The notes beneath the pieces are model-generated. The model did no database searches. It was not told the origin of the DNA and saw only the letters and a list, made by a program, of their open reading frames with translations. From Streptomyces sp. CB02056 (GTDB lineage Bacteria; Actinomycetota; Actinomycetes; Streptomycetales; Streptomycetaceae): 64,000 nucleotides of DNA. Shown here piece after piece: positions 38,543 to 47,216 of the stretch; positions within the stretch are counted from its first letter, which is position 1, and each line of letters begins with the position of its first letter. Location of the stretch: contig NZ_LIPD01000020.1 in assembly GCF_001905545.1 (NCBI RefSeq), positions 62,001 to 126,000 of the forward strand. Direction: 5' to 3'. A program made the position numbers and the translations under genes.

Positions 38543-39385
38543 CTACGGGTGGGTGTCCTTGGCCGTGGGCTGCGTCTTCTGGTTGTAGATCTCCTTGCCG
38601 TCCGCGTTGTAGGCGTGGACGTAGGGGGTCGGGGGGAAGGCGTTCGCGTCGGGGCCGGTGGAGATGGCAGCCGTGTAGGCGAACGCGCCGCCCGCCATGA
38701 CGGCCGGGTACTGCGTCGGGTCGTCGCCGTAGCTGATGGTGACCTTGGCGACGTCGGCGGTGTAGTGCCCGGCGCCCAGTGAGAGGACCTGCCCGGCACC
38801 GGTCGGGGCGTTGAAGCTGTCGAAGAACTCGACCAGGTGGCCGGCGCCCCACAGACGGTCGTTGATGAACGTCGGGGGGAGGGAGATGCTGTGCCCGGTC
38901 CGGCCCTTCGACTCGCACTGCACGTACTGGCCGGCGGAGTCGACGGCGACGACCACGCCGTCGGTGTCCGAGGAGGCGGCGGGAGCGCGGACCGCGATCA
39001 CCGCCTGGTACTGCGACGCCTCGGAGCCCAGGCAGGAGCCCAGGATCTCGGCGACGGCCCCGGCCTCGATCGGAGTCGTCGTCGTGCTGGTGACGGTGAA
39101 CGCCGCCGGGGGGTGGGGGGAGGCCGGCACGGAGGGGGTGCCTGTGGCGGCCGGCCCCTGCTGTGGTGCCGGTGGGTGTTGTGGCCCCGGCGGGTTCAGC
39201 ACGGACGGGAGGGTCAGGCACAGGGCCGCCGCGGCGCAGGCCGCGGTCGCGCCGAGGGCGTGTCGACGGTGGCGGCGCCGGTCGGCGCGTCTGCGGATCT
39301 CCGCAGCGGGCAGAGTCGGTGCCGGCATCTGCGTGCCGAGCAGCCGCAGCCGGTCGTCGAGGCTGTCGTGGACGGGGTCAGACAC
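38543..39385 (-). CDS. Membrane protein paired with ECF sigma factor (putative anti-sigma)
   Basis: 280 residues from a GTG start that lies inside the end of the sigma gene (8-base overlap). About 40 cytoplasmic residues rich in Arg/His, one membrane helix (ALGATAACAAAALCLTLPSVL), a Pro-rich linker, then an extracytoplasmic domain of about 180 residues with two cysteines (SCLGSEA and VQCESK). No zinc anti-sigma HxxxCxxC motif is visible, so if it restrains the sigma factor it does so by another fold. The extracytoplasmic domain is almost identical to the secreted protein encoded at 40143 on the other strand. Confidence 0.85.
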   Translation of the reverse strand: MSDPVHDSLDDRLRLLGTQMPAPTLPAAEIRRRADRRRHRRHALGATAACAAAALCLTLPSVLNPPGPQHPPAPQQGPAATGTPSVPASPHPPAAFTVTSTTTTPIEAGAVAEILGSCLGSEASQYQAVIAVRAPAASSDTDGVVVAVDSAGQYVQCESKGRTGHSISLPPTFINDRLWGAGHLVEFFDSFNAPTGAGQVLSLGAGHYTADVAKVTISYGDDPTQYPAVMAGGAFAYTAAISTGPDANAFPPTPYVHAYNADGKEIYNQKTQPTAKDTHP

Positions 39386-39890
39386 GGAGCTTTCCTTCCT
39401 CGCTGGTCGGGGTCCGGTCGGAGAGTCTGGCCGCGAGCGCGGTCCGGCCGCGGGCGAGGCGGCTCTTGACGGTGCTGATGCCGGCGCCGGTCTCGGCGGA
39501 GACCTGCTCGATGGAGAGGTCGCACATGTGGTGCAGGACCAGGGCGATCCGCTGTGCTTCGGGTAGGTCGCGGAGCGCGGTGACCAGCATCAGGTGCTCC
39601 TCGGTGGGCGGCTCGACGGTGGACGGTTCGTGGCGGTGGTGGTGTCCGGCCAGGTGCAGGCCCCGGGCGAGGCGCCGCCAGCGGGAGTGGGCCAGCCGCC
39701 GGGCCGTGGTCCGGATCCATGCCTCCGGGGCGTTGCCGGGGTCGAAGGTGCGCCTGCGGTCCCAGGCGCGGATGAAGGCCTCCTGGACCACGTCCTGGGC
39801 TTCGGACCAGTTGCCGGTTATCGCGTAGAGCTGCCCGGTGAGGCGGGAGAAGGACGCCGCGTAGAACGCGTCGAACTCCTGTGGCGTCAT
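39378..39890 (-). CDS. SigE-type ECF RNA polymerase sigma factor
   Basis: 170 residues from ATG 39890 (a TTG directly before it is less likely), preceded by GGAGAG. Region 2 reads LTGQLYAITGNWSEAQDVVQEAFIRAWDRR, and region 4 reads LRDLPEAQRIALVLHHMCDLS...GISTVKSRLARGRTALAARL, typical of the SigE/Sig70-ECF group of actinobacteria. Overlap with the membrane protein gene indicates a sigma/anti-sigma pair responding to a signal outside the cell. The divergent secreted paralogue of the sensor domain may be its target or ligand competitor. Confidence 0.93.
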   Translation of the reverse strand: MTPQEFDAFYAASFSRLTGQLYAITGNWSEAQDVVQEAFIRAWDRRRTFDPGNAPEAWIRTTARRLAHSRWRRLARGLHLAGHHHRHEPSTVEPPTEEHLMLVTALRDLPEAQRIALVLHHMCDLSIEQVSAETGAGISTVKSRLARGRTALAARLSDRTPTSEEGKLRV

Positions 39891-40142: not shown

Positions 40143-40910
40143 ATGCGTATCCGCCCGATCATGATCATCACCGCCACCGCCGCGGCCATCGCGACCGCGG
40201 GGGGAATGGCCACCGCCGCGACCGGCACCCCCACGGCCACCCCCACGGCCCAGAGCAAGCCCGCCGCCGCGCCGGCCGCCCCTGCCGCGCCGGCCGCCCC
40301 GGCCTCCGGCAGCGGCTCGGCCGCGACCGGAGCGACTGCCACCCCGGCGGCCTCCACCGTCACCAGCACGACGACGACCCCGATCGACGCCGGGACCGTC
40401 GCCGGGATCCTGGCCTCCTGCCTGGGCTCCGAGGCTTCGCAGTACCAGGCGGTGATCGGGGTCCGCGCTCCCGTCGCCTCGTCGGACACCGACGGCGTGG
40501 TCATCGCCGTCGACTCCGCCGGCCAGTACGTGCAGTGCGAGTCGAAGGGCGACAAGGGCACCAGCATGTCCTCGCCCGCGACGTTCATCAACGACCGCCT
40601 GTGGGGCACCGGTCACCTGGTCGAGTTCTTCGACAGCTTCAGCACGCCGGCCGGTGCCGGGCAGGTCCTCTCGCTGGGCGCCGGGCACTACACCGCCGAC
40701 GTCGCCAAGGTCACCATCAGCTACGGCGACGACGCGACGGAGTACCCGGCCGTCATGGCGGGCGGCGCGTTCGCCTACACGGCTGCCATCTCCACCGGCT
40801 CCGACGCGAACGCCTTCCCCCCGGCTCCCTACGTCCACGCCTACAACGCGGACGGCAAGGAGATCTACAACCAGAAGACGCAGCCCACGGTCAAGAACAC
40901 CCACCCGTAG
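40143..40910 (+). CDS. Secreted paralogue of the anti-sigma extracytoplasmic domain
   Basis: 255 residues with a signal peptide (MRIRPIMIITATAAAIATAGG, cleavage near AATG), an Ala/Pro-rich linker of about 50 residues, and a C-terminal domain of about 180 residues nearly identical to the outer part of the membrane protein at 38543; I count roughly two dozen differences by eye. No membrane helix follows the signal, so it should be exported. It is transcribed divergently from the sigma factor gene and ends at a strong palindromic terminator. No catalytic motif is visible. It may bind the same ligand as the sensor or modulate it. Confidence 0.88.
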   Translation: MRIRPIMIITATAAAIATAGGMATAATGTPTATPTAQSKPAAAPAAPAAPAAPASGSGSAATGATATPAASTVTSTTTTPIDAGTVAGILASCLGSEASQYQAVIGVRAPVASSDTDGVVIAVDSAGQYVQCESKGDKGTSMSSPATFINDRLWGTGHLVEFFDSFSTPAGAGQVLSLGAGHYTADVAKVTISYGDDATEYPAVMAGGAFAYTAAISTGSDANAFPPAPYVHAYNADGKEIYNQKTQPTVKNTHP

Positions 40911-42447: not shown

Positions 42448-43188
42448 CTAGAGGTCGGCGATCCGCCACACCCCGATCGACTTGTCGGCGAAGCGGTGCT
42501 CGACCCGCCTGCCGTCCTCCTCGGTGACGTAGACCTCGGTGCACTGCTCGTCGAGCACCCGGAAGGGCTCGGGCAGCAGGAACGGGGCCCGCCGGAGGTT
42601 GAGCGGACGCCAGCCGCCCGCTTCGGTGGCGGCCTCGTTCCCGGCCCGCCCGGTGAAGGTGGTCGTCGCCAGGTAGGTCGAGCCGCTGCGCCGGATGTTG
42701 TCCAGCGCGCGGTGGACGTCGTCGTCTCCGAGGTGCACCAGGCAGTCGCGGGAGAAGACCAGGTCGACCTCCGGCAGCGGGTCGCGGGTGAGGTCGAGGA
42801 CCCGGAACTCGCGGTCGGCGCGGGCGAAGCGCGCCCGGTTGCGCTCGACCACCGCGGGGACGATGTCGGCACCGAGGTAGCGGTCGACGCCCAGGTCGAC
42901 CCTGGACATCCAGAAGAAGTCCCCGCACGGCGCGTCGAGCAGGCTCCGGACGCCGAGCTCGGCGAGCAGGGACGGCAGTTCGGCACGCAGCGCGGCCGTC
43001 TGGGCCAGGTTCGACCCGAGGCCGGAGCGGGATTCGTCGTCGTCGGCCCCGCTGTCCTCGGTCAGGGTCCAGGCTCCGCTGGCGTAGATCCGGGCGAAGG
43101 TCTCCTGGAGCGTGTCGCGCGGTGGCCCGGCGGCTTCCGGTGCCGCCACGGAACCGTGCGTGCCCTGCTGCCGGGTGTCGTCGGTCAT
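42448..43188 (-). CDS. SAM-dependent methyltransferase
   Basis: 246 residues, starting at an ATG (after AAGGAGG) that overlaps the MFS stop by ATGA. The Rossmann SAM-binding motif reads SLLDAPCGDFFWMSRVDLG, followed by YLGADIVPAVVERNRARF and the motif-IV-like DLVFSRDCLVHLGDDDV. The first 60 residues are divergent and polar. It resembles class I methyltransferases annotated in natural-product and surface-glycan clusters; whether N- or O-methylation occurs cannot be said. It is tightly coupled to the exporter and the ligase gene. Confidence 0.88.
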   Translation of the reverse strand: MTDDTRQQGTHGSVAAPEAAGPPRDTLQETFARIYASGAWTLTEDSGADDDESRSGLGSNLAQTAALRAELPSLLAELGVRSLLDAPCGDFFWMSRVDLGVDRYLGADIVPAVVERNRARFARADREFRVLDLTRDPLPEVDLVFSRDCLVHLGDDDVHRALDNIRRSGSTYLATTTFTGRAGNEAATEAGGWRPLNLRRAPFLLPEPFRVLDEQCTEVYVTEEDGRRVEHRFADKSIGVWRIADL

Positions 43189-44504
43189 TGGTCCTCCTTG
43201 GTCGTACGGACGGATGCCGGCACTGATGCCGAAGCCTGTTGCGGACGGTCTGCCCCCGCCTCCGCCCCCGCCCCCGCCGCGGCCTGCGGCTCGGACGGCA
43301 GGGTGCGGACCCCCGGGACGGCCAGCACGACGCCCGCGGTCGCGGCGACCAGGCAGGCCGCGCCCAGGAAGACGGCGCCGCTGCCGACCCGGTCCGCGAT
43401 CGGGGCGGCGACCGCCAGGCCGAGCGGGAGGAAGACGAACGAGCCGAAGGCGTCGTAGGACATCACCCGGGACATCGACTCCTCCGGCACGTGCTTCTGC
43501 AGTGCCGTGAGGAAGGTGACGTCGTTGAGGCTCATGCACAGGCCGGTGACGAACATCGCGCCGGCGGTGACGGCGACCGGCGCGGCGCAGGCCAGCGCGA
43601 CCAGGGACGGCACGATCCCCAGGGTGAACAGCACCGCGGCCCGCAGGGGCCGGCGGGGCCGCAGCCGGATGGCCAGCAGGCTGCCCGCCACGAAGCCGAC
43701 CGCCTGCGCGGTGAGGACGGCGGCCCATCCGGAGGCGCCGCCGAGGTGCGCCTCGGCCTCGACCGGTCCCAGCACGATGAAGCCGGCGCCGATGCACACG
43801 TTCACCAGCGCGAGTTGTGCCACCGCCGCCCACAGCCAGGTCCGTTCGGTGAACTCCCGCCACCCGTGCCGGAGTTGCGAGAAGATGCCTTCCTCCGTGG
43901 GCGACGGCTGGTCCGCCGTGCCGGTCAGCCGGACTCCGGCGAGGAGCACCGCGGACACCAGGAACGTCGCCGCGTCCACCACCAGTGCCCAGCCGGCGCC
44001 GAGCAGGACGACCAGCACGCCCGCGAGCGCCGCGCCGCCGATGCTGCCCGCGTTCATCGACAGCTGGACCAGCGCGTTGGCGGACTGGATCTTCTCGGCG
44101 GGCACGAGCTGCACCGTGACGCTCCGGGACGCCGGGGTGAACAGCGCGCTGGCGGCGCCGCTGACCATCGACAGGACGACCAGGCCCGCCAGGGAGTCCG
44201 TCCCGGTCAGCACCAGGACCGCGACCGCTCCCTGGGCGAGACCCGCGGTCAGGTCCGCCCCGACCATGACCCGGTGCCGCGGCAGCCGGTCGGCCAGGAC
44301 ACCGCCGTACAGCAGGAACGCGACCTGGGCGGCGATCCGGGCGGCGGCCACGATCCCGAGGGTCGAACCCGAGCCGTCCGGCATTCCGAGGACGGCGAAG
44401 GCGAGCGCCACCGGTGCGATGGCGTCACCCAGCAGGGAGACGGACCGGGCGGAGAACAGCAGCAGGAAGGAACGGTCTCGGAGGATGGAGAGGTCGGCGC
44501 GCAC
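43185..44504 (-). CDS. MFS transporter, candidate product exporter
   Basis: 439-residue major facilitator with about 12 hydrophobic segments, starting at a GTG. The N-terminal signature RDRSFLLLFSARSVSLLGDAIAPVALAFAVL and the loop GGVLADRLPRHRVMVGADL place it near the drug-efflux branch of MFS (MFS_3/TetV-like). The C-terminal tail is Ala/Glu-rich. It sits inside the biosynthetic operon between the HIT and methyltransferase genes and is the obvious exporter or self-resistance pump for the product. Confidence 0.92.
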   Translation of the reverse strand: MRADLSILRDRSFLLLFSARSVSLLGDAIAPVALAFAVLGMPDGSGSTLGIVAAARIAAQVAFLLYGGVLADRLPRHRVMVGADLTAGLAQGAVAVLVLTGTDSLAGLVVLSMVSGAASALFTPASRSVTVQLVPAEKIQSANALVQLSMNAGSIGGAALAGVLVVLLGAGWALVVDAATFLVSAVLLAGVRLTGTADQPSPTEEGIFSQLRHGWREFTERTWLWAAVAQLALVNVCIGAGFIVLGPVEAEAHLGGASGWAAVLTAQAVGFVAGSLLAIRLRPRRPLRAAVLFTLGIVPSLVALACAAPVAVTAGAMFVTGLCMSLNDVTFLTALQKHVPEESMSRVMSYDAFGSFVFLPLGLAVAAPIADRVGSGAVFLGAACLVAATAGVVLAVPGVRTLPSEPQAAAGAGAEAGADRPQQASASVPASVRTTKEDQ

Positions 44505-44555: not shown

Positions 44556-45077
44556 TCACACCGCGGTCCGGTCCGGGCGGTCGGGGGACGGTGCCGAGAG
44601 GCGGGCGCGGGTGGCGGCGAGCCGCTCCAGCGGCACCGGGTCGGCCTTCCAGGGGCGGTGGAGATGGTCCCCGGCCGCCCGGGGCACCAGGTGGACGTGC
44701 AGGTGGAACACGTCCTGCCAGCCCGCGTCCCGGTTCGCCTGGAACAGCGTCAGGCCGTCCGGCGCCAGCACGTCCCGGATCCGCCCGGCCATCAGGTGGA
44801 CGGTGGCCATCACGGCGGCGGCGTCCTCCGGGGTGATCTCCCAGAGGTCGGCGGCGTGGCGCTTGGGGATCACCAGGGTGTGCCCGTCCATGACCGCGGT
44901 GATGTCGAGGAAGGCGATGGTCCGCTCGTCCTCGTGGACGACGGCGGCGGGCAGCCGGCCCCCGACGATGGCGCAGAACACGCAGTCCGCGGACCGCGGG
45001 CCGTCGCCCCGGTCCCGCTCCGGCCCGGCGGTGGGCGCGGTGGGCGCAGGGGCCGCGGTGGTCGGCCGGGGCGTCAT
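44556..45077 (-). CDS. HIT-family nucleotide hydrolase/transferase
   Basis: 173 residues from the ATG that overlaps the glycosyltransferase stop (ATGA). After a Pro/Thr-rich leader of about 35 residues comes a HIT domain: CVFCAIVGGRLPAAVVHEDE, FLDITAVMDGHTLVIPKRH and the histidine triad HLHVHLVP. HIT proteins cleave or transfer nucleoside phosphates (for example adenosine-5'-phosphoramidate or dinucleoside polyphosphates). In this operon it points to a nucleotide or nucleotidyl-activated intermediate. It has kept all three active-site histidines, so it should be active. Confidence 0.93.
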   Translation of the reverse strand: MTPRPTTAAPAPTAPTAGPERDRGDGPRSADCVFCAIVGGRLPAAVVHEDERTIAFLDITAVMDGHTLVIPKRHAADLWEITPEDAAAVMATVHLMAGRIRDVLAPDGLTLFQANRDAGWQDVFHLHVHLVPRAAGDHLHRPWKADPVPLERLAATRARLSAPSPDRPDRTAV

Positions 45078-46171
45078 CGCGCGACCCGGCGGGAGAGTTC
45101 GGCCAGGTCGCCGGCGGTCCGCGACAGCGGGAAGCGCCCGCTGTTGACCAGGCCGGCCGCGGCCAGGTCGTCCAGCCGCTCCGGCGAGCGGAGGAACTCC
45201 TCGATGCGGCCCCGCAGCGCCGTGAAGTCCCCGAAGTCGACCGGGAGCGCGGAGCGGCCGAGCACCTCGGTCAGGCCCGGCACGGGCTGGTAGGCGACCG
45301 GCAGGCCGCACGCCTGCGCCTCGATGGTCACCAGCCCGAACGCCTCCAGCCGGAGCGAGGGGACGATCAGGAGGTCGTGTCCGCCGAACGCGCGCCACAG
45401 GTCCTCCCGGGACAGCCAGCCGAGGCGGCGCACCCGCGACAGGTCGGAGCGTGCGGCCAGGGCCGCGAACTCCGCCGGGGGAGCGGCCACGGAGAGCTCC
45501 ACCCCGGGGAGCGAGGCCACCGCCGCGATCAGGCCGGAGGTGGCCTTCTCGGCGGTGAGCCGACCCGCGTAGAGCACCCGCAGGACGCCCGCTTCGCGCT
45601 CCGCGCGGTGGCCCGGCCCGGTGGGCCGGCCGGCCAGCAGCCGGTCGGGGACGCCCCAGGGGATGTGGACGATCCGGTCCGACGGGACCGGGGCGATCCG
45701 GCGCAGCCGGTCCGCCATCGCCCGGGTGGGGACGACGATCGCGTCGGCCGATGCCGCGGTCTCCCGCAGGACGGCGGCCTGGGTCGGGTGGTCCTCGGCG
45801 AACAGCAGGTCGGTGCCGTGCACCAGCGCGATGCTCGGCCGGTCGGGAAAGACCTGCTGCAGGGCGGCCGTCGCGCCGAAGGCCAGGTGCTGGAGGTGCA
45901 GCACGTCGTGGTCGGCGGCGGGGTACCTGTCCCGGACGGCGGCGCCGAGCCGGTCCACGTAGGCCCAGAACGCCGGCCCCGACACCGTCTTGCCCGGCAC
46001 CGCGAGCAGGGCCGGTGAACCGGAGGTGTCGGGCGCCTGCCGGTCCTCCGGGGCGAGCATGAAGACGTCGGCGGGGATGAGCGGTTCCGGCCCGCCGTAC
46101 AGGTCGCGCAGCAGCTCGACGCTGCCGCCGGGGCTGTCCGGGGGGAGGTCGATCCCGGTGAGGACGTTCAC
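45074..46171 (-). CDS. GT4-family glycosyltransferase
   Basis: 365 residues from a GTG that overlaps the upstream stop by GTGA. GT-B fold: N-terminal acceptor half with VNVLTGIDLPPDSPGGS and DVLHLQHLAFG, donor half with VLRVLYAGRLTAEKATSGLI and the GT4 signature PSLRLEAFGLVTIEAQACGLPVAY (E-x7-E). The retaining GT4 family uses nucleotide sugars. It would glycosylate the product or an intermediate. A glycosyl donor pathway is not present, although a ROK sugar kinase is encoded next to the operon. Confidence 0.9.
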   Translation of the reverse strand: MNVLTGIDLPPDSPGGSVELLRDLYGGPEPLIPADVFMLAPEDRQAPDTSGSPALLAVPGKTVSGPAFWAYVDRLGAAVRDRYPAADHDVLHLQHLAFGATAALQQVFPDRPSIALVHGTDLLFAEDHPTQAAVLRETAASADAIVVPTRAMADRLRRIAPVPSDRIVHIPWGVPDRLLAGRPTGPGHRAEREAGVLRVLYAGRLTAEKATSGLIAAVASLPGVELSVAAPPAEFAALAARSDLSRVRRLGWLSREDLWRAFGGHDLLIVPSLRLEAFGLVTIEAQACGLPVAYQPVPGLTEVLGRSALPVDFGDFTALRGRIEEFLRSPERLDDLAAAGLVNSGRFPLSRTAGDLAELSRRVAR

Positions 46172-46692
46172 GCGAGCTCCTCGTACAGTCGCGATGTGTC
46201 GATGCCGCTGGTCCGGGTGTACTTCCGGCCCATGTTCTGGTAACTGGCCTCCGCGCCGAGGGTCTTGAGGAAGATGATCTTCCCGAAGGTCATCCCCGGA
46301 TAGATCCGCACCGGGCGCACGACGCGGATCTCGAGCGTCCATCGGATGGCGTGGCCGACGTGGCCGAGCGGTGCCGAGACGTGCACCCAGACGCCCAGCG
46401 CGCCCACCGTGCGGTCACCGTTGATCATCTGCGCGAAGCGCTCGGAATGGGTGCGCTCGTGGGTGACCCCGAGGTAGAGCCTGCCCGGCAGCAGCACCAT
46501 GCCGTCCGGCGGGATGGTGCGCTCCTCGAACTCGGTGGAATGCGCCGCGTCGAGTTCGGACTCGCACACCCGGATGGTGTCGCCGAGTCGCCAGTCGTAG
46601 GCGTTCGGGGAAATCCTTCGGGGGTCGAACGGCTCTATGACGATGTCACCGGAGTCGATCGACCTGGCTATTTCCGCCCGGGTGAGGATCAC
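46168..46692 (-). CDS. dCTP deaminase-like protein B (lacks SSxxxR, keeps catalytic Glu)
   Basis: 174 residues from a GTG overlapping the stop of protein A by GTGA. Trimeric dUTPase/dCTP-deaminase fold: opening VILTRAEIARSIDSGDIVIEPFD, PNAYDWRLGDTI, VRIYPGMTFGKIIF and the C-terminal RKYTRTSGIDTSR. Aligned by eye to E. coli and mycobacterial Dcd, the catalytic Glu is kept (E121 in RWTLEI). The phosphate-binding G-K/R-S-S-L-x-R block is degraded to GDRTVGA (Ser to R94, Arg to A98), the substrate-binding Asp is His (H111), and the KYQG lid is KYTR. It is unlikely to be an ordinary homotrimeric deaminase. It may need protein A to form a working site, or bind another ligand. Confidence 0.88.
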   Translation of the reverse strand: MILTRAEIARSIDSGDIVIEPFDPRRISPNAYDWRLGDTIRVCESELDAAHSTEFEERTIPPDGMVLLPGRLYLGVTHERTHSERFAQMINGDRTVGALGVWVHVSAPLGHVGHAIRWTLEIRVVRPVRIYPGMTFGKIIFLKTLGAEASYQNMGRKYTRTSGIDTSRLYEELA

Positions 46693-47216
46693 AGCTGCCC
46701 CAACTTGTCCCGCCAGTAGCGCGATTCCTGAGGACCGACCGCGCCCTGGTACTTCCCGGAATAGGGCTCGATATCGCCGAGCGTGTCGAAGAACATGATC
46801 TGCCCGATCTTCATCCCGGGATACACCCGCAGCGGTCGGACCGCGGACAGCATGAGGGTCCACTGGCCGTGGAAGCCGATGTCCCCGATCGGGGCGGTGA
46901 TCTCCACGAAGAGCCCGAGCCGGCCGACCGAGGAGCGCCCGAAGAGCAGGGGCACGAAGACGTCGGATCCGACCTCCTCCACGGTGTGCCCCAGGTAGAG
47001 CTGGTCGGGCTCCAGCACGAAGCCGCTGGAGTCGATCTTGGTGGCGTCGGTCCGGTTGGGCCGGTACGCGTCGATGACGCTGTCCGTGTAGGTGATCAGC
47101 GTCTCCCCGAGGCAGACGTTGTAGCTGTTCGGGTTCACCTGGTCCCGGTTGAACGGGGATATGGAAATCCTGCCGTCGCGGGCGGATTCAACGATTTCTG
47201 GTCCCGTCAGGATCAC
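46689..47216 (-). CDS. dCTP deaminase-like protein A (keeps SSxxxR, lacks catalytic Glu)
   Basis: 175 residues from GTG 47216, preceded by GGGAG; a TTG further upstream would add 11 residues not found in the family. It opens VILTGPEIVESARDG, with PNSYNVCLGETLI, LRVYPGMKIGQIMFF and a well-kept lid SGKYQGAVGPQESR. The phosphate-binding block is intact (GRSSVGR; S95, R99) and the substrate-binding Asp is kept (D112), but the catalytic Glu is Met (M122 in WTLMLS, an ungapped alignment with TLELS). Its losses are the mirror image of protein B. It is the first gene of the minus-strand operon, divergent from the ROK gene. Confidence 0.88.
   Translation of the reverse strand: MILTGPEIVESARDGRISISPFNRDQVNPNSYNVCLGETLITYTDSVIDAYRPNRTDATKIDSSGFVLEPDQLYLGHTVEEVGSDVFVPLLFGRSSVGRLGLFVEITAPIGDIGFHGQWTLMLSAVRPLRVYPGMKIGQIMFFDTLGDIEPYSGKYQGAVGPQESRYWRDKLGQL

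Follow-up and report, generated by a model that had tools for sequence, protein, structure and literature searches.

How can two neighbouring dCTP-deaminase-like genes work together, if each of the encoded proteins has lost a different part of the active site? This question is raised by two genes, here called A and B, in a stretch of 64,000 nucleotides from Streptomyces sp. CB02056 (contig NZ_LIPD01000020.1, positions 62,001 to 126,000), in the following called the window. The analysis suggests that the A/B pair could well split a bifunctional dCTP deaminase/diphosphatase into two kinds of site, a hydrolase-type site between two A subunits and a deaminase-type site formed by the phosphate block of A and the glutamate of B.

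The two genes overlap by the four bases GTGA, and the proteins share 39% identity and align without gaps in the active-site region. On re-inspection, the coordinates, the overlap, the residues and the ungapped alignment given by an earlier sequence-only reading of this DNA were all correct. Both proteins clear the PF22769 cut-off of 27 bits (Table 1). For TIGR02274, the NCBI model for dCTP deaminase with a cut-off of 92.8 bits, A scores above (99.9 bits) and B below it (68.9 bits). Monomer models from AlphaFold 2, with a predicted local distance difference test of 85.2 for A and 83.6 for B, have the Dcd structures of M. tuberculosis, B. halodurans, M. jannaschii and E. coli as their top structural matches (A against 4a6a, Foldseek template modelling score 0.86; B against 2qxx, VIA Z 19.9).

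The active-site residues were mapped by phmmer alignments of A and B to the Dcd:Dut of M. tuberculosis, and the numbering of this structure (2qxx) is used for the equivalent positions. Protein A contains the equivalents of Ser102, Arg106, Asp119 and Gln148 and has a methionine in place of Glu129. In B the equivalent of Glu129 is present, and Arg, Ala, His and Lys are found at the positions of Ser102, Arg106, Asp119 and Gln148. Here, the lysine at the Gln148 position, which occurs in 80 of 80 B orthologues, is a loss additional to those listed before. The catalytic glutamate of TIGR02274 (E138 in E. coli, E129 in M. tuberculosis) is thus missing in A, with Met122 in 81 of 81 proteins, and the SSxxxR block is missing in B, with Arg/Thr/Ala or similar in all 80 orthologues. 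The residue set of a Dcd:Dut hydrolase, namely Ser102, Asp119 and Gln148 with no arginine two positions before the aspartate (Asp-2), is found in A only, and B lacks all three residues. For the dUTPase reaction of the M. tuberculosis enzyme these three residues are reportedly essential (PMC3360063); all of them are in A and none in B, while the deaminase glutamate is in B alone. Furthermore, monofunctional deaminases have an arginine at position Asp-2, and bifunctional enzymes have an aromatic residue there (PMC3360063). Since this position is Ile or Leu in the A-type proteins, their water site is not blocked by an arginine.

This split is fixed in close relatives. When a genome collection was scanned with A, 80 loci were retained, from Streptomyces, Kitasatospora, Nonomuraea, Amycolatopsis, Micromonospora, Actinomadura, Promicromonospora and others. 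B lies directly downstream of A in 79 of them, the remaining locus (L063) being cut by a contig end, and the four-base overlap is present in 76 of the 79. Ser95, Arg99, Asp112, Met122 and the KYQ lid are found in 81 of 81 A proteins; the B orthologues all carry the glutamate and a histidine in place of the aspartate (80/80 each), and none has an SSxxxR block. The mirror-image losses noticed in the window are a property of the whole group. At the level of the class, close relatives of B occur in 4 of 395 genomes and A adjoins in all four. At the level of the family, A-like matches occur in 57 of 395 genomes and their number is even in 56; the exception (genome G403, locus L179) has one protein with both Asp and Glu. 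This protein is the only unpaired match in the family and keeps all motifs except the lid glutamine. Wherever a B-type protein was found, an A-type partner was also present in that genome or record. The search for conserved A-B pairs in other genomes, proposed by the sequence-only reading, showed that the genes are co-conserved and usually translationally coupled, which supports an obligate pair in the functional sense, as judged from gene content.

More distant pairs follow the same rule. They were found on Streptomyces plasmids (pFRL6, NBC_00239, NBC_01237, NBC_01384 and S. globisporus), in Nonomuraea, Nocardiopsis, Embleya and two Rhizobium, and 25 more were read from Streptomycetaceae genomes. 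The A-type partner has the aspartate, the KYQ lid and the block, in some cases with Gly for the second serine, and carries Gln or Met instead of the glutamate. The B-type partner keeps the glutamate, has His, Asn or Gln for the aspartate and lacks the lid glutamine; Embleya has one extra B-type protein in addition to the pair. In total, 276 aligned proteins comprise 121 A-type, 121 B-type and 34 unpaired proteins with both Asp and Glu, with no other combination; the counts contain slight redundancy, as a few species were sampled from two collections (119 A-type and 120 B-type sequences are distinct). Not one of the 242 paired proteins has Asp and Glu in one chain; both residues are kept in single-gene relatives from Paenibacillus, Aneurinibacillus and phages and in housekeeping Dcds. 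Chance or a sequencing error is excluded by this fixed split in 81 A and 80 B orthologues and in 121 + 121 proteins.

The exchange of Glu for Gln is the natural state in 33 of 121 A-type proteins. Two members of the pFRL6-like family (L165, L167) have Met as in the window instead of Gln, probably as an independent change. The gene order varies as well: the window family starts with the A-type gene, the pFRL6/Rhizobium family with the B-type gene. A distance of 7–10 kb separates the partners in a third family (L155, L157, L159-L164), whose A-type domain forms a fusion with a PPDK_N/PEP-utilising region (PPDK, pyruvate phosphate dikinase; PEP, phosphoenolpyruvate) of about 650 amino acids (e.g., L159:773-3277). 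Where annotated, the B-type gene of this family adjoins a P-loop kinase, and the gene set recalls the phtJ-phtP region of phaseolotoxin.

The structural logic of the family restricts what such a pair can do. Active sites of this superfamily are built between subunits (PMC12088426, PMC12524310). Alignment to the known motifs places SSxxxR at motif II and both Asp and Glu on motif III, a hairpin supplied by a single subunit (PMC4827122, PMC12524310). Asp112 and position 122 of A are 10 residues apart, and the model has position 122 on the strand after the Asp112 turn. Because both residues belong to the hairpin of one subunit, no A/B interface of the known type holds Asp and Glu together. The sole pairing of a phosphate block with a glutamate at this locus is motif II of A facing motif III of B. 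By inference from the relatives, an A3 trimer would contain three Asp-only sites and a B3 trimer no working site; A2B would have one Asp-only site, one Glu-only site and one site at the block of B without a phosphate grip, and AB2 one Glu-only site. No arrangement of A and B would regain Asp and Glu together, and division of labour is a better reading of the reciprocal losses than site restoration.

Mechanistically, a heteromer of A and B is likely, judging from the residue patterns. A would give the phosphate-binding face (SSxxxR of motif II, Gln139 and the KYQ lid) to every working site. Motif III of A facing the block of A, with Asp and no Glu, would allow only the Palpha-Pbeta cleavage of a (deoxy)nucleoside triphosphate, and motif III of B facing the block of A, with Glu and no Asp, only the deamination of a cytosine nucleotide. 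A pyrimidine nucleotide would thus be deaminated and turned into a monophosphate in separate half-sites, and the next enzymes of the pathway would be a GT4 glycosyltransferase and a phospho- or nucleotide hydrolase, a HIT protein here and a 5'-nucleotidase-like protein elsewhere. The fold, the split of the residues and its conservation, the strict pairing, the gene coupling and the neighbours are observed in the sequences. The assignment of motifs to subunits and the roles of Asp, Ser, Gln and Glu are taken from the literature on relatives; complex formation, stoichiometry, both activities, substrate and product are predictions.

In a dUTPase, exchange of the aspartate for asparagine abolishes hydrolysis and keeps binding (PMC4827122, PMC5519681). 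Since, in addition, the dUTPase residues are all in A, a split of the Dcd:Dut reactions is the simplest mechanism, and binding without hydrolysis would be expected at B-type sites. The pattern of conservation points in the same direction. Motif III of B is near-invariant in 15 of 17 columns, almost as constant as motif III of A, whereas near-invariant motif II columns number 3 of 8 in B versus 8 of 8 in A. The losses in B track the subunit boundary, with motif II, Gln148 and the lid lost or altered and motif III kept, which would fit a division of labour. The hairpin of B also carries two extra invariant histidines (111 and 114) by the invariant Glu121, which canonical Dcds do not have there; a metal site at these residues is conceivable.

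Several points weigh against this division of labour. The support for an A/B complex comes from monomer models and sequence. The former block of B has not simply decayed, as the combination Asp-Arg-Thr predominates there (69/80); since the altered motif II and the lysine for Gln148 are fairly or fully conserved, B's own face may have gained a new role. Unless the substrate differs, there is no evident reason for a cell to split the enzyme when it already has a functional Dcd and dUTPase. The title of Siggaard 2009, as cited in PMC12088426, describes the reactions of the M. jannaschii Dcd:Dut as concerted, and splitting may therefore cost efficiency. Some relatives (pFRL6, Nonomuraea and Embleya clusters) have a separate cytidine-deaminase-like gene, which raises the question whether the B-type protein has to deaminate at all.

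The gene neighbourhood helps to judge what the substrate could be. The genome encodes its own full-motif Dcd (C23) and dUTPase (C10), so the A/B pair probably does not serve a housekeeping function, and a role in pyrimidine supply is unlikely. The most constant neighbour of A-B is the GT4 glycosyltransferase, with the cluster seen in 78 neighbourhoods. Type I clusters (~63 loci) consist of a MurA-like enolpyruvyltransferase, a 5'-nucleotidase-like metallophosphoesterase, A, B, GT4 and a beta-lactamase-like hydrolase; type II has an AurF-like oxygenase, A, B, GT4 and HIT; and type III (the window, L005-L007 and L011) has A, B, GT4 and HIT together with a ROK kinase. Most type III members also contain an MFS exporter, ATP-grasp ligases, an argininosuccinate-synthase-related protein, a nonribosomal peptide synthetase (NRPS) adenylation protein and a condensation-like protein. 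The pFRL6-type pairs are accompanied by P-loop kinase-like, cytidine-deaminase-like, methyltransferase and glycosyltransferase proteins. A phosphate- or nucleotide-cleaving enzyme recurs in all three A-B cluster types, which indicates a nucleotide intermediate in specialised metabolism. The natural-product pathway that had been offered as an alternative to a heteromer is thus supported by the context; it is not a rival and stands alongside the heteromer.

In such a pathway, the heteromer with composite sites could have had its chemistry repurposed, acting on a modified or phosphorus-nitrogen nucleotide intermediate rather than dCTP or dUTP. We regard this as a distinctly less probable possibility. 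The pairs lie in clusters and not in housekeeping settings, the third family has its fusion of an A-type domain with a PPDK_N/PEP-utilising domain, and the B hairpin has its two invariant histidines absent from canonical Dcds at this place. In addition, HIT proteins adjoin A-B-GT4, and the HIT family includes nucleoside phosphoramidases. In the phaseolotoxin cluster, the adjacent genes phtJ and phtK are both called deoxycytidine triphosphate deaminase and precede the PPDK-like phtL (PMC3927611); phtL is suspected in N-P bond formation because agrocin 84, another phosphoramidate, has homologues (PMC4530439). Against repurposed chemistry, the genes adjoining A-B in the window did not include a PPDK-like one, and the retained Asp, Ser, Gln and Glu are the catalytic residues of the parent reactions.

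A model in which only A is catalytic, as a homotrimeric, dUTPase-like nucleotide diphosphatase which has lost deamination, and B is a regulatory or stabilising subunit, appears unlikely. It would agree with the finding that every residue reported as necessary for the dUTPase reaction is in A and none in B (PMC3360063). Nevertheless, the glutamate is present in 121 of 121 B-type proteins, some of them very divergent, and a purely structural subunit need not retain it; motif III of B also varies hardly more than motif III of A.

It is quite improbable that A and B form homo-oligomers of their own and have each been repurposed for nucleotide binding or regulation. A contact between A and B is not seen in the present sequence data, and dUTPases of staphylococcal phages are known signalling proteins (PMC5593958). 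Independent homo-oligomers would leave the strict pairing and the reciprocal loss unaccounted for, B alone has no phosphate block, and in the third family both partners are still present although 7–10 kb apart.

Only slightly less remote is the idea that the pair is a P-N bond enzyme, in which the B site would free ammonia from a cytosine nucleotide and pass it to the A site, where it would take the place of water as the nucleophile on phosphorus and yield a phosphoramidate for specialised metabolites, for instance of the phaseolotoxin type; the position of phtJ-phtK beside phtL, the A-type/PPDK fusion and the HIT neighbours would be circumstantial support. That mixing A and B would bring back a full canonical dCTP-deaminase site (block, Asp, Glu and lid), as the composite sites of the sequence-only reading imply, agrees with the complementary residue lists and is yet the least probable of all, because a single subunit supplies the motif III hairpin on which both Asp and Glu sit (PMC4827122, PMC12524310).

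The bifunctional dCTP deaminase/dUTPases of M. tuberculosis (2qxx/4a6a), M. jannaschii and B. halodurans (4xjc) are the closest known systems. They share the fold and are the best structural matches, and the hydrolase residues reappear in A and the deaminase glutamate in B, with no arginine at Asp-2. In contrast, they are one-gene homo-oligomers with both residues in each chain, whereas A and B each lack one. Engineered variants of the glutamate (M. jannaschii 3gf0 E145Q and 2hxd E145A; E. coli 1xs4 E138A) resemble the many A-type proteins in which Gln is natural; these are homo-oligomers made for crystallography, whereas in the A-type proteins the change is natural and fixed, and the glutamate is borne by the partner. 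Trimers of unequal subunits or domains are known from the natural covalent dUTPase pseudo-heterotrimer of Drosophila virilis (PMC12524310) and from engineered covalent dUTPase hybrids (PMC4827122). The former has three nearly identical domains and the losses in the latter are laboratory constructs; neither shows a conserved reciprocal loss in two genes.

Compared by annotation and gene order alone, phtJ-phtK look like a known, unexplained instance of an A/B pair, with two adjacent dCTP-deaminase-annotated genes, a PPDK-like neighbour and a specialised-metabolite cluster. The window cluster differs in having no PPDK-like gene nearby, while the A-type/PPDK fusion of the third family matches the association of phtJ-phtK with phtL. 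In the open-access literature passages, neither a role for phtJ/phtK nor a remark on reciprocal loss was found, and no description of A/B-type pairs was found in the open-access literature.

The pairs may stem from one old duplication or from several with convergent loss. In trees, the pairs are separate from housekeeping Dcds and close to the full-motif singles of Bacillota. In an initial tree, A clustered with beta (83/74) and B with alpha (99/91); without the trait columns only B with alpha persisted (96/76), and A+B, alpha+beta and A+beta each withstood approximately unbiased tests as a single clade (p 0.34–0.47). Under either origin, the reciprocal loss is maintained.

A family described as homo-oligomeric thus has a widespread branch of two genes with reciprocal and fixed active-site losses, which offers a natural test of dividing a bifunctional inter-subunit site between paralogues. 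Gene content and residues suggest that the split pair would be an unrecognised two-part enzyme for making specialised metabolites, and it marks a shared step of several uncharacterised clusters of this kind, possibly including the phtJ-phtK step of phaseolotoxin. At present, automatic annotation is misleading, since in five loci (L085, L086, L089, L122, L123) the partner without the catalytic glutamate is named dcd or dCTP deaminase, and the Glu-bearing partner is hypothetical, generic or unlisted.

An anti-phage defence role was also considered and rejected, as no PADLOC-DB model was matched by A, B or two distant relatives; the neighbouring HIT protein matches the PADLOC model ThsC, which is described as HIT family. 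The features of the locus are collected in Table 1.

Table 1. Positions of the A/B pair, its active-site motifs and the adjoining genes within the window.
Feature	Position	Strand	Remarks
Protein A, dCTP-deaminase fold, A-type	46689..47216	-	175 amino acids, GTG start; PF22769 134 bits
A motif II, RSSVGR, residues 94-99, phosphate block	46920..46937	-	invariant 81/81; entropy 0.01 over 92-99
A motif III hairpin, residues 107-122, Asp112 and Met122	46851..46898	-	Asp, Met in 81/81
Protein B, dCTP-deaminase fold, B-type	46168..46692	-	174 amino acids, GTG start; PF22769 98 bits
B motif II remnant, DRTVGA, block lost	46399..46416	-	D/N/S, R/H/L, T/S/A, A/S/G over 80 orthologues
B motif III hairpin, His111, His114, Glu121	46330..46377	-	His, His, Glu in 80/80
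GT4-family glycosyltransferase	45074..46171	-	Pfam Glycos_transf_1 / Glyco_transf_4; 4-bp overlap with B
HIT-family protein	44556..45077	-	PF01230 79 bits; 4-bp overlap with glycosyltransferase; common to type II and III clusters
MFS exporter-like protein	43185..44504	-	PF07690

The type I operon is widespread in Streptomyces (L015, L025, L029-L031, L037-L085 and others), often beside XRE/HATPase regulator sets and integrative-element-like genes, and is also found on plasmid NZ_CP108158.1. The pair of L086 (plasmid NZ_CP108096.1) is accompanied by TauD, PIG-L, two aminoacyl-tRNA-ligase-like, HIT and radical SAM genes and an LD-carboxypeptidase, a neighbourhood which suggests an aminoacyl-nucleotide-like product.

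Elsewhere in the window, an NRPS-like open reading frame of 7977 amino acids (212-25659, + strand) precedes a small MbtH-like protein and a P450-like gene, and these may form a biosynthetic cluster of their own. Furthermore, two divergent genes (38543-39385 on the - strand and 40143-40910 on the + strand) with a long, near-identical C-terminal part flank a sigma-factor-like gene (39378-39890), and this looks like a duplicated anti-sigma-type protein.
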